Of a stretch of 23,857 bases of DNA, positions 2,448 to 18,514 are shown in pieces. The stretch's first letter is position 1, and each line of letters opens with the position of its first letter. The DNA is from a virus, in IMG/VR virus record IMGVR_UViG_3300011445_000066, positions 1 through 23,857 of that record; one strand, given 5' to 3'. Below the pieces are notes generated by a model. The model had not been told where the DNA came from. It worked only from the letters and a program-made list of their open reading frames with translations, and did no database searches. The position numbers and the translations under genes are program-made.

Positions 2448-3023
2448 ATGCGTGTCATGGCGGCGCCCGTGCTCACCTTCATGCCCGAAACGATCGTCGC
2501 AGGCACGACGCTCAAGTACCTCCGCACGCTGAGCTATTTCCCGGCCAACGACGGCTGGACGCTCAAGCTGTCTCTGGCCGGCCTGTCTCTGTACAGCGCC
2601 TCGGCCAGCGGCGCCGACCACCAGGTGACGATTGCGTTCGGCGGCGACACCGGCACCGGGCTGTGGGAGCCCGGCACCTACGACTGGTCAGAAATCGTCG
2701 AGAAGGCCGGCGAAAAGTACGTCGTCGCCAGCGGCACGCTTGTCGTCATCGCCCACCCCTCGTCGATCCCGGCCGACCAGGCGCGGCCGTTCTGGGAGCA
2801 GGTCAAGGAGAAGGCCGAGGATCTCTACTTGGCGCGGCTCACCCAGGGATCGGACGTCAAGGAGTTTGAAGTCGCCGGCCGGCAGTTCACGCTGGAAACC
2901 CTCGAAGACATCGAGCGCGTGATCGCGATCGCGGACCGCCAGATCTCACGTCTCCGTTCTGGACAGCGCTTCAGCACGCCGGTCGTCATCCGGCCGCGCT
3001 ACTGGCCTTGGCAGACGTCGTGA
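2448..3023 (+). CDS. Virion protein with N-terminal beta domain and possible gpW-like C-terminus
   Basis: The gene lies between large terminase and portal, where lambda carries gpW, the small head-tail joining protein. At 191 residues it is almost three times the length of gpW. Residues 1 to about 110 are strand-rich (LTFMPETIVAGTTLKYLR, then LKLSLAGLSLYSA and VTIAFGGDTG), suggesting an Ig-like or beta-sandwich domain. The rest is helical and ends with FEVAGRQFTLETLEDIERVI followed by a further helix. That strand-then-helix pattern is like gpW and related joining proteins. The start is uncertain: ATG 2448 and ATG 2457 are both possible, TTG 2433 less so, and no clear ribosome site precedes any of them. 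The stop overlaps the portal start. The joining function is inferred from position and the C-terminal pattern; I do not recognise the N-terminal domain with certainty. Confidence 0.7.
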   Translation: MRVMAAPVLTFMPETIVAGTTLKYLRTLSYFPANDGWTLKLSLAGLSLYSASASGADHQVTIAFGGDTGTGLWEPGTYDWSEIVEKAGEKYVVASGTLVVIAHPSSIPADQARPFWEQVKEKAEDLYLARLTQGSDVKEFEVAGRQFTLETLEDIERVIAIADRQISRLRSGQRFSTPVVIRPRYWPWQTS

Positions 3024-4612
3024 ATCGTTCGCCCATCCGCAATCGACTCGGTCGCGCCGTCCTGGCGCTCATGCCGGCGCGCGTCCGACACGCGGTGCGC
3101 GAGTTCTTCGGGCCATGGCCCGTCAGTCAGATCATGGCCGGACCCGGGGCCTCAGAGCTGTCGCAACTCGTCTCCGACTTTGTCAGGGGGACCATGAACC
3201 CCGACGACGAGATCCGCGGCTCAGCCAGGAGGCTCCGGGAGAAGGCCCAGCAACTCGAGCGCTCGAACGCCTGGATCGCAGGATGGCTCGACCACCTGGT
3301 GAACGGCGTGATCGGACCGAACGGGATCCATCACCAGGCGCGCGTGCTGAGACGTGACGGCAAGATGAACGCCGACCTGAACGCGCACATCGAAGACCGT
3401 TTCTACGACTGGACGCGAGCCGTGACGCGGGACGGTCAGCTCACGCTGATGGACTACGAGGATCTCGCCCTGCGCTCGGCCGGGACTGCCGGTGAAGTGT
3501 TCGTCCGCGCGATCGTCGGACCGCAATACCGACACGGCCTGGCCCTCGACTTCATCGACGCCGAGCTCGTCGACGAGGAGTTCGTTCGGGTCGAGCGCGA
3601 CGGCTTCAAGTCCATCCGGAACGGTATCGAGATCGACCGTGACGGGCGCCGAGTGGCCTACCACTGTCTTTCGGACTACGGCGGGCAGGGCAACGTGCGC
3701 CATCTGCGGATCCCCGCCGAGGAAGTGCGTCACGTTTACCGGCCACGACGCGTCAACCAGGTGCGCGGCATATCGTGGGCCGCCCCGATCCTTGTCAGCC
3801 TCCGATCGCTCGACGGTTACGAGATGGCGGAGCTGATCCAGGCGCAGATCGCCGCCAGCAAGGGCGGCTTCTTTGAAAACATAATGGAAGGCAACGAGCC
3901 CGATGGCGAGTGGGCAAAGAACGAGAGCTCGCCGATCACGATGGAGGCCGCGCCTGGTGTCGCCGAGAAACTGCCGCGCGGCTGGACCTTCAAGGAATGG
4001 TCACCGACGCATCCGACGGCACAGTTCCCGGGCTTCGTGAAGTCGAACCTTCGGAAGATCGCGACCGGTCTCGGTATCAGCTACAACCAGCTCGCCAACG
4101 ACCTCGAGGGCGTCACCTACTCGTCGCTGCGTTCCGGCTTCACTTCAGAGCGCGATGGCTATCGGCGGCGCCAGACCTGGTGGATCGACTCGTTCCGCGA
4201 GTGGATCTATCCGATCTGGATGCGACAGTCGATGCTCGCCGGCGAGCTCAAGCTTCCGTCGCCCGACCCGGTGCGGTACGCCGCGCACGAGTTCATCCCG
4301 CGCGGGTTCCCCTGGGTGGATCCATACAAGGACATCGCGGCCGCGATCCTCGAGATCCAGTGGGGCCTCAACTCGCGCACGCGCATCACGGCCGAAGCCG
4401 GCCGCGACCTCGAGGAGACGCTCAAGGATCTGAAGCGTGAGGACGAGGCGGCGGCCCTTCTTGATGTCCTCATCCGCGCCGGTGTCACGGCTCCCGGTGG
4501 GACCGACAACAACGCACAGGAAGGGGACGCCGGCGACCAGGAGGCTGGATCACGCAACGGACACGCGCGTCGCGCGGTGCTGGCGGCGCTTCGTAACGGA
4601 GGGATCCAATGA
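3020..4612 (+). CDS. Portal protein, lambda gpB type (Phage_portal_2)
   Basis: This 530-residue protein forms the dodecameric ring at one capsid vertex through which DNA is packaged and ejected. Family features are clear: an N-terminal helical segment with RGSARRLREKAQQLERSNAW, then WLDHLVNGVIGPNGI, the GEVFVR strand, the LALDFIDAELVDEE segment, the HVYRPRRVNQVRGISWAAPI loop, and the SYNQLANDLEGVTYSSLRSG motif before the crown. The start is taken as GTG 3020 because its GTGA overlaps the upstream stop, as in many junctions here; TTG 3008 is an alternative adding four residues. The C-terminus after about residue 480 is acidic and low in complexity, as is common in this family. The stop overlaps the next ATG by four bases. 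Confidence 0.93.
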   Translation: MNRSPIRNRLGRAVLALMPARVRHAVREFFGPWPVSQIMAGPGASELSQLVSDFVRGTMNPDDEIRGSARRLREKAQQLERSNAWIAGWLDHLVNGVIGPNGIHHQARVLRRDGKMNADLNAHIEDRFYDWTRAVTRDGQLTLMDYEDLALRSAGTAGEVFVRAIVGPQYRHGLALDFIDAELVDEEFVRVERDGFKSIRNGIEIDRDGRRVAYHCLSDYGGQGNVRHLRIPAEEVRHVYRPRRVNQVRGISWAAPILVSLRSLDGYEMAELIQAQIAASKGGFFENIMEGNEPDGEWAKNESSPITMEAAPGVAEKLPRGWTFKEWSPTHPTAQFPGFVKSNLRKIATGLGISYNQLANDLEGVTYSSLRSGFTSERDGYRRRQTWWIDSFREWIYPIWMRQSMLAGELKLPSPDPVRYAAHEFIPRGFPWVDPYKDIAAAILEIQWGLNSRTRITAEAGRDLEETLKDLKREDEAAALLDVLIRAGVTAPGGTDNNAQEGDAGDQEAGSRNGHARRAVLAALRNGGIQ

Positions 4613-6543
4613 GCAAGAAGGCCTACCCGGGCCAGGGCGTCCAGCGAATCGCCGCGGCGGAGATCCGCCAGGTCACCCGCGCTGCGGGCGACGGCGACGC
4701 GACAACCTACGAGGTCGCGGTATCGAGCGAAACCGAAGTCACTCGCTACGGATGGTTCGAGAAATGGCGCGAGGTGCTCGGCCACAGCTCGGGAGAGATC
4801 GACATGGCGCGCTTCAAGTCGGGGCGCGCCGCGGTCCTCGAGGAGCACGACGGGCCCCCGATCGGCGTGATCGAGTCGGCGCGTGTCGGCGCAGACAACG
4901 TATTGCGCGCGATCATCCGGTTCTCGCAGAGCACGCGTGGGCAGGAGGTCGAGAACGATGTGAAGGCGGGCATCCGCGCGAATGTTTCGGTGGGCTACAT
5001 CCCGAAGCGCGCCCGGATGGAGGAAGAAAACGAGGAGCAGGGCGATCTGTGGCGGGTCACGAAGTGGGAGCCAGTCGAGCTTTCGATCGTCGGCATCCCG
5101 GCGGATGCGACGGTGGGCGTGGGACGTTCGGCAAAGGACGATCCCGCGTTTCCGCCCGTCGAGATCGAGGTCCACGAGAACAGGGAGGTTCGGACGATGA
5201 AGACGAAGAGTGTTCGAGGGCCGGACGGCACCATCATCGAGGTGCCGGAGACGGACGAGCGGGCAGCGGTGTCTCCGCGCGAGGCCGAACTCGAGGCCGA
5301 AGAGAAGCGCCGGAGCGCACTGCTCGAGCTCGGCACGTCGAGCAAGGTCCCGCTCGCGAAGGTGCGCGGCTGGATCGACAGCAACATCTCGCTCGAGCAG
5401 GCCTTGCGCCAGCTGCTCGAAGAGCGCGCGACCCGGTCGGCGGACCCGGCTCCGGGGGCCGACCCCGAGCTGTGGATGGCGAGGAAGGATCGCTCGGCCT
5501 ACTCGCTCTGCAGGGCGGTTCTCGGTGCCTCCGACATTCGCGAGGGCAAGAGCAATCTATTCACCGGGCTCGAGCGCGAGGTCGATCAGGAGCTCGGGAA
5601 GACCTTCACGCGACAGCGTGGCGGCGTCCTGGTCCCGCTCACGCTCGGCGTCTCGCGCCGCACGATGGAGACCGGCGCCCCCTCCAAGGGCATCGAGCTC
5701 GTCAATGAGGAACAGCAGCCGATGATCGAGCTGCTCCGCAATCGGATCGCTGCGGTGCGGCTCGGCGCGCGGGTTGCGTCCGGGCTGTCGGGACCGATCT
5801 ACTTCCCGAAGCAGACCTCGGCGGTCGTCGCCCAGTGGCTCGGCGAGAACCCGGGCACGCCGGTCGCGCTGAGCGATCCGGGGCTCGGCGTTCTGCAGAT
5901 GACGCAGAAGACGCTCATGTCCCAGGTCAAGTTCTCGCGTCAGCTGCTGATCGCAGCGGCCTTCGACACGGAGCAGTGGCTGCGGTCGGACATCACGCTC
6001 CAGCACGTGCTGGCGGTGGACTTCGCCGTCTTCCACGGACTCGGTGCGGGGCCGGAGCCGATCGGCGTCTACAAGGCCGGCGGCGTCAGCAGCACCGCCG
6101 TCGGTGGCGCGATGGACTACTCGAAGGTCCTCGATGCCCAGGGCAAGGTGGCGGCCAAGAACGCCGACGTCGGCGCCCTCGGGTGGGTCATGCATCCGAC
6201 GATGGCGACCAACCTCAAGGGCAAGGCCCGCTTCGCGAATACCGACACTCCCGTGTGGGAGGGGACGTATGACGACGGGCGCGTGGGCGGCTACGGCGCC
6301 ATCGCGACGAACCAGATCTCGAACACGATGACCGGCTCCGAGCGGATTGGTGGGGCCGAAATCGGCGGGATCTTCGGCAACTGGAACGACGTGATCATCG
6401 GGCTGTGGGGCGCGATCGAGCTGATCGTGGACCCGTTCACGCTCGCTGGCTACGGCCTGCTCCAGATCACTGGCTATCAGGGCGCCGACACCGGCATCCG
6501 TCACGGAGAGAGCTTCACCAAGCTGACGGGCGCCACCGGCTAG
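4609..6543 (+). CDS. Prohead protease fused to HK97-fold major capsid protein
   Basis: This single 644-residue frame joins two head genes that many phages keep apart. Residues 1 to about 175 form an S78/U35-like prohead serine protease. By the HK97 pattern I assign His80 (EEHDG), Ser127 (ANVSVGY) and Glu157 (PVELSIVGIPAD) as the catalytic residues. Residues about 200-270 are charged and helical (PREAELEAEEKRRSAL), like a delta or scaffolding region. From about 290 to the end is an HK97-type capsid: YFPKQTSAVVAQWLGENPGT, then SRQLLIAAAFDTEQWLRSDI, and a C-terminal FGNWNDVIIGLWGAIELIVD strand typical of the P domain. An in-frame ATG at 5197 with its own strong ribosome site could give the scaffold-capsid part alone. 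The ATGA at 4609 couples the gene to portal. The fold calls are from recognisable patterns; where processing cuts is unknown. Confidence 0.93.
   Translation: MSKKAYPGQGVQRIAAAEIRQVTRAAGDGDATTYEVAVSSETEVTRYGWFEKWREVLGHSSGEIDMARFKSGRAAVLEEHDGPPIGVIESARVGADNVLRAIIRFSQSTRGQEVENDVKAGIRANVSVGYIPKRARMEEENEEQGDLWRVTKWEPVELSIVGIPADATVGVGRSAKDDPAFPPVEIEVHENREVRTMKTKSVRGPDGTIIEVPETDERAAVSPREAELEAEEKRRSALLELGTSSKVPLAKVRGWIDSNISLEQALRQLLEERATRSADPAPGADPELWMARKDRSAYSLCRAVLGASDIREGKSNLFTGLEREVDQELGKTFTRQRGGVLVPLTLGVSRRTMETGAPSKGIELVNEEQQPMIELLRNRIAAVRLGARVASGLSGPIYFPKQTSAVVAQWLGENPGTPVALSDPGLGVLQMTQKTLMSQVKFSRQLLIAAAFDTEQWLRSDITLQHVLAVDFAVFHGLGAGPEPIGVYKAGGVSSTAVGGAMDYSKVLDAQGKVAAKNADVGALGWVMHPTMATNLKGKARFANTDTPVWEGTYDDGRVGGYGAIATNQISNTMTGSERIGGAEIGGIFGNWNDVIIGLWGAIELIVDPFTLAGYGLLQITGYQGADTGIRHGESFTKLTGATG
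5182..5199 (+). promoter_or_regulatory. Internal ribosome-binding site and ATG inside the protease-capsid frame
   Basis: AGGGAGG at 5182-5188 is followed by eight bases and then an in-frame ATG at 5197 (residue 197 of the fusion). This is as good a ribosome site as any in the window and lies exactly at the border between the protease and the helical scaffold-capsid part. Starting here gives a 448-residue product. In lambda the scaffold Nu3 is made from an internal start within protease gene C, so a nested start has precedent. Use of this site is inferred. Confidence 0.6.
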
Positions 6544-17268: not shown

Positions 17269-17987
17269 CCGCCGGCCTGGTCACCGTCGACGTCCGCAAG
17301 GCCGTCGTGCTGCTCGCCCTCAGGAACGGGGCGAAGCGCATGACCTACTCCGTGGCGAACGCGATCAACACGACGGCGAAGTCGATCCAGCGCCACCAGC
17401 GCGAGCACACCGGGCAACAGTTCGTCGTGCGGAAGGAGTTCACGCGGCGCCAAGCGTCGATCATCAAGCCCTTCGCGTCGCCGGCGAAGGGGATCATGCA
17501 CGCCCGGCTCTCGGTGGGGCAGCCAGACCGATTCCTGCTCGGCGGTTTCGAGCAGGGCGCTGAACGGCGGCCATTCACCCCGGGTGCGAAGCGGGTGGGC
17601 GTTCCCGTCATCGGTGGGGCCCGTCCCTCGAAGGCTGCTTCGGTCGATCCGCAGCTCACGTTTCAGAGGCTGGCAATCCGACCGAAACCCGGCCGCGGCC
17701 GCGGGCGACGCCGGAGCTCCGGCAGGGCGCCCCTGGTCGGCCGCCTGGGCACTTTCATCGCGAGGACGGCCCGTCAGCCGGAAGGCGGGGTGTTTCAGCG
17801 CACCGGGCCGGGTCGCGGCGACGTGCGACTGCTGTACGCGTTCGTCGCGCACCCGCCACGGCTCGATCGGCGGCTGCGGTTCATTCCCATCGCGGAGGAT
17901 GTCACGCGTCGGGAGTTCCCGCGGCACCTCGGCGACGAGATCCGGAAGACCTTCGCATTCCAGGCGGCGCGGGCCGCGCTCGGATGA
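17265..17987 (+). CDS. Minor tail protein Z-like / HK97 gp10-like protein
   Basis: The 240-residue product has an N-terminal helix with TYSVANAINTTAKSIQRHQR and a TRRQASIIKPFASP segment, the pattern of the lambda gpZ/HK97 gp10 group, whose proteins finish the tail at the head-proximal end. The middle (KPGRGRGRRRSSGR) is strongly basic and disordered-looking, and the end (LDRRLRFIPIAEDVTRREF) is a strand followed by a helix. The unusual point is the location: it is 9 kb away from the tail tube, after fibre genes rather than before the tube. The start ATG overlaps the upstream stop by four bases and its stop overlaps the endolysin start. If the Z call is right, the place is atypical; otherwise it is a DNA-binding-like virion protein. 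Confidence 0.58.
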   Translation: MTAGLVTVDVRKAVVLLALRNGAKRMTYSVANAINTTAKSIQRHQREHTGQQFVVRKEFTRRQASIIKPFASPAKGIMHARLSVGQPDRFLLGGFEQGAERRPFTPGAKRVGVPVIGGARPSKAASVDPQLTFQRLAIRPKPGRGRGRRRSSGRAPLVGRLGTFIARTARQPEGGVFQRTGPGRGDVRLLYAFVAHPPRLDRRLRFIPIAEDVTRREFPRHLGDEIRKTFAFQAARAALG

Positions 17988-18514
17988 GTGCAGGGATGCG
18001 CACCGGGGCAGGGATGCCCCAACAGCTTCGCACGCTGACTGACCTCGAGGTTCGAGAGAACTACGGCGATCCGTCCCGCCTCATCCGCGAGGACGGTGGC
18101 ATCGATTCCGCCTGGGAGACGCTGACGCTCGGCTTCTGCTACCTGCCGGCGCCACTGCCGCTCTCGTGGGACCGCTCGCGCTTCGTGCTCCGGGTCCGCT
18201 GCCACCGGCTGATCGTGACCCGGCTCGAGCGCGTCCTGCGGGCGATCCACCAGGTCCCAGAGGCCTGGGCATCGATCGGCGACTTCGGCGGCTGCTACGC
18301 CTGGCGTCCGCGGCGCGGATCTCGCCGGCGCCTCTCGATGCACTGCTGGGGGATCGCGATCGACCTCGACGTCGCGGACAACGCGGACCACAGCGTCGGC
18401 ATGGTGCACCCGTTCACGATCGAGGCCTTCAACGCCGAGGGCTTCTACTGGGGCGGGCGCTTCGCCGGCGACGATCGCGATCCCATGCACTTCGAGATCG
18501 GGGTGGCCGCATGA
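17984..18514 (+). CDS. Endolysin, M15-family peptidase (L-Ala-D-Glu or D-Ala-D-Ala type)
   Basis: This 176-residue protein carries the zinc motif of M15 peptidases: SMHCWGIAIDLD with His120 and Asp127, then DPMHFEIG with His169 near the C-terminus. These enzymes cut the peptide stems of peptidoglycan to release phage. There is no signal peptide and no wall-binding domain, so a holin must let it reach the wall, as usual for Gram-negative phages. The N-terminal 60 residues are not conserved motifs. ATG 17984 overlaps the previous stop; ATG 17996 and ATG 18014 lie in the same frame and could be used instead. A hairpin covers the third ATG. It is followed at once by two membrane genes, as a lysis cassette should be. 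Confidence 0.9.
   Translation: MSAGMRTGAGMPQQLRTLTDLEVRENYGDPSRLIREDGGIDSAWETLTLGFCYLPAPLPLSWDRSRFVLRVRCHRLIVTRLERVLRAIHQVPEAWASIGDFGGCYAWRPRRGSRRRLSMHCWGIAIDLDVADNADHSVGMVHPFTIEAFNAEGFYWGGRFAGDDRDPMHFEIGVAA
18005..18020 (+). promoter_or_regulatory. GGGA-capped hairpin over an in-frame ATG of the endolysin gene
   Basis: GGGGCA (18005-18010) and TGCCCC (18015-18020) form a perfect six-pair stem with a GGGA loop, which has the GNRA pattern. The third in-frame ATG of the endolysin (18014-18016) lies in the loop and stem. The motif GCAGGGATGC occurs twice here, at 17990 and again about 18 bases later. It may slow or select translation starts; this is inferred. Confidence 0.45.

Follow-up and report, generated by a model that had tools for sequence, protein, structure and literature searches.

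In bacteriophage lambda, the C/Nu3 pair combines an N-terminal head protease with an in-frame internal start that releases the C-terminal part of the same protein. The internal product is scaffold only, and the shell protein E is encoded by a separate gene. The ClpP-capsid fusions of the Gifsy-2 type (NCBIfam NF045540) are known as the 'tripartite capsid gene'. Fusion of a protease to a capsid protein is itself already known, from PHROG 617, from two NCBIfam fusion families and from Gifsy-2. In HK97, protease and capsid (gp4 and gp5) are products of separate genes, and the protease enters the head without a covalent link. Actinophages of the Arthrobacter clusters AM, AU and AN and of the Microbacterium cluster EE also possess a fused S78 protease and capsid. 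A survey of Arthrobacter phages calls this fusion unusual and likens it to HK97 and lambda (PMC5513430), whereas small siphoviruses are said to have it commonly in a genome announcement (PMC9671004); the passages on the fusion mention no internal start.

Here we describe a fused protease-capsid gene in a 23.9-kb IMG/VR virus record, the whole of which is called the window below. Its closest described relatives are the PHROG 617 fusions (R4C, RcCronus, VP882, PPpW-3, FoX5, S-CBS1 and others), which share the same full-length domain order at 30-41% identity. All PHROG 617 phages examined possess an ATG at the border between protease and scaffold, and no structural difference from the window gene was seen; the records examined annotate one product for the gene and make no note of an internal start. 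As with lambda C/Nu3, an in-frame internal start lies downstream of an N-terminal head protease, in the window preceded by a Shine-Dalgarno (SD) sequence; the protease family differs, and the internal product of the window gene contains the shell itself. The best reading of the sequence is that the gene works like the nested pair of lambda, applied to the shell protein, and as such represents a different version. The earlier note had proposed such a distinction from lambda, and the internal open reading frame indeed holds the whole HK97 shell domain. HK97 gp4/gp5 and the window gene are alike in the S78 protease, in the scaffold at the N-terminus of the capsid precursor and in the HK97 fold, the 448-residue product having the plan of gp5.

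Anatomy of the fused gene and its two starts

Besides the fused gene, the window encodes a large terminase subunit of the GpA type, a portal of the lambda type and head-tail and tail genes; the features of the fused gene and its surroundings are collected in Table 1. Pfam places Peptidase_S78 at residues 76-168 (29.7 bits, cut-off 21) and Phage_capsid (PF05065) at residues 369-640 (98.1 bits, cut-off 24.2), and the capsid family TIGR01554 is scored at 71.8 bits versus a cut-off of 27.5. PHROG 617 aligns residues 22-642 with positions 16-624 of its 626-position profile (E 2.4e-94). The fused protein does not pass the stricter S78 family TIGR01543 (28.9 bits, cut-off 59), and it does not reach the 525-bit cut-off of NF045541 (prohead protease/major capsid fusion), which gives 151.3 bits over residues 28-282 only. 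A match to the Clp family was found neither in Pfam nor in NCBIfam, S78 being matched instead. His80, Ser127 and Glu157 are invariant among the 16 fused homologues aligned. As judged from the family score and these catalytic residues, the N-terminal part of the protein is an S78 prohead protease.

A structure was predicted with AlphaFold from an alignment of 44 fused proteins (mean pLDDT 80). It comprises a confident protease fold up to about residue 175, a structureless stretch from 176 to 203 that contains Met197, helices at 223-332, a second structureless stretch at 348-369 and, finally, a confident HK97 shell. The best Foldseek match is the R4C capsid 8gta (E 2e-17, target TM 0.70), followed by the capsids of GTA, D3 and HK97. 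The claim of the earlier note that a complete protease pattern and a complete HK97-type capsid share one frame is therefore borne out by Pfam, by the invariance among homologues and by Foldseek, and its placement of AGGGAGG and an in-frame ATG between the two domains agrees with the position of Met197 in a linker (176-203) predicted to be disordered.

Table 1. Features of the fused gene and its upstream neighbour in the window
Feature	Position	Strand	Basis
Portal gene, lambda family	3008..4612	+	ORF list, Pfam
GGAGGG, SD of the first start (ATG 4609)	4598..4603	+	anti-SD pairing -10.0 kcal/mol
Fused gene, S78 prohead protease - scaffold - HK97 capsid, 644 aa	4609..6543	+	ORF list, Pfam, PHROG 617 over residues 22-642
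Protease fold, residues 33-175, with His80, Ser127, Glu157	4705..5133	+	Pfam, homologue alignment, AlphaFold
Linker, residues 176-222	5134..5274	+	AlphaFold pLDDT <50 at 176-203 and 212-220
AGGGAGG, internal SD	5182..5188	+	sequence; anti-SD pairing -11.8 kcal/mol; homologues
Internal start ATG 5197-5199 (Met197) and predicted 448-aa scaffold-capsid precursor	5197..6543	+	sequence, relatives
Helical scaffold (delta-like), residues 223 to ~360, predicted to be removed in maturation	5275..5688	+	AlphaFold; homology to R4C 8gta
Mature shell, residues ~361-644, HK97 fold	5689..6540	+	Pfam, R4C structure, AlphaFold, Foldseek

The TGA of the portal gene and the first ATG of the fused gene overlap as ATGA (4609-4612), and in 80 of 105 relatives a start lies at -25 to +15 nt from the upstream stop, which suggests translational coupling of the first start to the portal gene. 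At the internal site, AGGGAGG is followed after an 8-nt spacer by the in-frame ATG at 5197 (codon 197). Calculated as a simple duplex with the anti-SD 9-mer in a fixed window, its pairing energy of -11.8 kcal/mol is the strongest of the 12 start sites compared among the head and tail genes of the window, in line with its earlier description as a strong internal ribosome site. Because the SD sequences of both starts are of similar strength (-10.0 and -11.8 kcal/mol), the dominant product and the ratio are not readable from the sequence.

Two other features of the window may be mentioned. Positions 17984-18514 (plus strand) encode an M15 family peptidase (PF13539, E 2.4e-11), likely an endolysin, and an open reading frame at the contig end (23614-23856, minus strand), cut by the end of the record, encodes a regular, hexapeptide-like A-x-V-x-G-x-A-x-V repeat.

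Conservation of the internal start in relatives

Searching viral contigs with the whole protein as query gave a first set of 80 fused relatives, which was combined with phage records and reduced to 91 non-redundant genes (<80% identity). In-frame starts within 60 codons after the protease domain were scored, counting an ATG whose anti-SD pairing reached -5 kcal/mol or better. Such an SD-ATG was found in 76 of the 91 genes; the figure for 737 control windows from these genes was 10%, and for the other two frames of the border only 6%. A second scan made use of the capsid half alone, so that protease and border had no part in the search; the alignment used here (A3) begins at the internal Met, but the search patterns lie in the shell. 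In the resulting enlarged set of 128 fused genes (<70% identical), 111 have the SD-ATG as compared to 14.4% of 763 control windows, with a Fisher odds ratio of 39 whose p-value is not to be taken literally, relatedness being controlled by the identity filters alone. Conservation in relatives, the check named by the earlier note, is thereby confirmed. All 128 genes possess a candidate border start, either ATG (126 genes) or GTG (two genes, with SDs of -12.5 and -10.3 kcal/mol).

Synonymous recoding, in which the amino acids were held, yielded on average 43 and at most 53 genes with an SD-ATG versus the 76 of 91 observed, and permutation of the codons in the border yielded at most 53 versus 111 of 128. 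A chance origin of the SD-ATG was rejected on the control windows and on these nulls, which never reach the observed counts; by these sequence comparisons the internal start is more than chance. The RNA around it is also less structured than that around control ATGs in the same genes (-11.3 versus -18.3 kcal/mol). In close pairs, which were picked for a shared ATG, the SD core is conserved for about 73% and the flanks for about 55%. Approximately 13% of the relatives have a weak or absent SD at the border ATG; S-CBS1 and S-LBS1, both cyanophages, have the border ATG without an SD.

It might be argued that only the full fusion is made and that a purine-rich K/E-x-x-Met motif, a feature of the protein such as a protease cleavage site or a flexible charged linker, mimics an SD. 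The border amino acids do favour purine-rich codons, as the high synonymous null (43/91) illustrates, a single SD codon phase (encoding K-E or E-E) accounts for 56 of 75 genes, and fusions of the Gifsy-2 type conserve the residues themselves (K/E-E-F..M-P). However, all three codon phases are represented among the SDs (56, 10 and 9 genes), and in the 19 of 75 genes with another phase the SD encodes R-G, K-G, R-S or G-N; the phase differs from gene to gene, so that the encoded residues change and the RNA signal stays. Moreover, where Met is missing (two genes), GTG (Val) stands in its place behind a very strong SD, the site outlasts an exchange of protease class, and a protein feature would account neither for the weak RNA structure nor for counts above those of synonymous recoding. 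We consider this explanation very improbable.

Even less credit can be given to the possibility that the SD-like site acts as a translational pause that lets the protease fold before scaffold and capsid are synthesized. Such a pause would suit a site exactly at the domain border, but it needs no start codon at SD spacing. In a reverse test, an in-frame ATG came after the strongest SD-like 9-mer of the border in 57 of 93 genes (61%) versus 22 of 362 control windows (6%), and out-of-frame ATGs after the strongest border 9-mer showed no excess, as is expected for a start and not for a pause.

The site might also be an unused relic of a once separate capsid gene. The distant unfused relative phi39:1 has separate protease and capsid genes with a TAATG stop-start overlap at the same place, and its capsid (439 residues) is about as long as the 448-residue internal product. 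Yet no naturally split version was found among the loci recovered by the capsid half alone: of 184 loci, 174 carry the S78 fusion, and the remaining ten comprise four contig ends, four ClpP fusions and a pair of distant phages that were added deliberately. A scan of genome contigs with alignment A3 returned two prophage-like loci. With identities of only about 30% among fused relatives, the fusion is apparently ancient, and a site out of use would be expected to have decayed, whereas spacing, low structure and GTG replacement are all kept. A relic is thus as hard to credit as a pause, and a working internal start remains the preferred reading.

Protease exchange and other fusion types

A ClpP-type (S14) protease takes the place of S78 on a related capsid in L126, L137 and L166 according to Pfam, L167 being nearly identical to L166. 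Another scan contributed L185, which likewise closely matches L166, and the distinct L189, both also ClpP fusions; taken together, these loci are listed as L126/L187, L137/L188, L166/L184 (near copies L167 and L185) and L189. All four distinct ClpP-fused genes have AGGAGG before the border ATG, with energies of -11.6 to -13.6 kcal/mol. The protease class is thus, as read from these sequences, exchanged with the capsid half and the internal start kept, and the internal initiation signal is conserved independently of protein sequence and protease class.

Like the window gene, fusions of the Gifsy-2 type have protease, scaffold-like and capsid parts in one frame and a border ATG with an SD; unlike it, their protease is ClpP-like (S14) instead of S78 and their border residues are more conserved. 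Border ATGs with an SD were found at residue 221 in Gifsy-2 (-8.8 kcal/mol), 211 in mEp043, 188 in mEp460, 222 in LESphi2, 176 in yong2, 214 in Pmp14, 215 in RcKemmy, 207 in Stenotrophomonas S1 and 218 in Bordetella PBb002. In Microbacterium phage Pondwater, whose capsid part weakly matches another capsid family, the border ATG is at residue 166 (SD -5.8). All of these, Pondwater included, are individual cases that stand outside the statistical controls. A search of 369 genomes with NF045540 recovered mostly ordinary ClpP; three genes scored above the cut-off, and the two of these whose sequence could be read have border ATGs (-5.8 and -7.7). Single genes outside the main family are not decisive, because L255, L256 and L265 have SD-like ATGs of equal or greater strength elsewhere in the gene, and some prophage members likewise have ATGs that rival the border one.

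Some loci depart from the common plan. Four marine cyanophages and roseophages (L011, L016, L017 and L018) have an extra N-terminal region of about 150-200 residues before the protease, a fourth part, which in L017 gives a weak TUDOR-like Pfam match. The ClpP reading frames of L208, L223 and L228 extend about 220-240 residues beyond the protease without a detected capsid, and carry an SD-ATG after the protease (-7.6 to -8.0) that may be likened to the scaffold start of lambda C/Nu3. In Halomonas phage phiHAP-1 (L006, 843-2651), the start given in the annotation (MSATSEYP) falls within what is the protease region in homologues, and the recorded N-terminus is probably too short.

More broadly, we lean towards the view that genes of the protease-capsid fusion kind generally encode two proteins: an internal start for the capsid is retained in three or more separately built types, the proportion of enzyme to shell is fixed as the single mRNA is translated, and the protease reaches the head interior covalently attached to a minority of the shell subunits. 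The types counted are S78 on a PHROG 617 capsid, ClpP on a PHROG 617 or Gifsy-2 type capsid, and S78 on an actinophage capsid.

Maturation, proposed mechanism and meaning

Phage R4C carries the same fusion gene (L015), and the chain of its solved shell (8gta) starts at the residue aligned to window residue 361, so that, provided this chain start marks the cut, the protease and scaffold parts would be gone from the mature head; this mature N-terminus rests on one homologous structure, in which the start of the chain may reflect disorder instead of a cut. The words 'protease' and 'cleave' are absent from the paper describing the R4C structure. The predicted 197-644 product would consist of about 164 residues of scaffold and about 284 of shell. 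As maturation removes the scaffold (197 to ~360), proteomics of virions would be blind to a start at Met197, whatever the truth.

Very probably, then, one mRNA gives rise to a 644-residue fusion and a 448-residue capsid precursor that co-assemble. Translation from 4609, probably coupled to that of the portal gene, would produce the protease-scaffold-capsid fusion as the minority product, and translation from 5197 would supply the scaffold-capsid precursor that makes up the bulk of the capsid. Because their scaffold and shell parts are identical, both proteins should co-assemble; the fusions would occupy some positions of the lattice, bringing the protease into the prohead on its inner face. 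There, the protease would free itself by cutting at the linker and would remove the scaffolds near residue 361, leaving a shell of subunits of about 284 residues. Most likely, as we infer, the gene yields both products, more of the internal than of the full-length one, which co-assemble and are cleaved in this order. The suggestion of the earlier note that a few fusions are built into a shell of mostly unfused capsid fits all the sequence evidence and is in that sense supported, with both products and their ratio as we infer them.

HK97 has about 60 proteases per 415 capsid proteins, Prohead 1 of D3 contains about 90 for its 540 capsid proteins (PMC12749128), and a ratio of fusion to capsid of roughly one to six or seven would be expected if the present phage is like HK97 or D3. 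Were the fusion the sole product, each subunit of the shell would carry a protease at its N-terminus within the head, unlike the situation in HK97 (PMC12749128).

A search of the open full-text literature, which lacks the main paper on the Gifsy-2 capsid, brought up no earlier account of a start inside the gene that would deliver the capsid, and priority is uncertain. A capsid-delivering internal start in a fused frame thus appears to be new, with strong support from sequence. Since the start survives the exchange of protease class, the rule suggested here concerns dosage and capsid supply, not the enzyme. A conserved internal start would resolve the excess of protease and set right how a widespread class of head genes is annotated; this one start codon would also offer a simple handle on how much protease a head needs and how the protease gets in.
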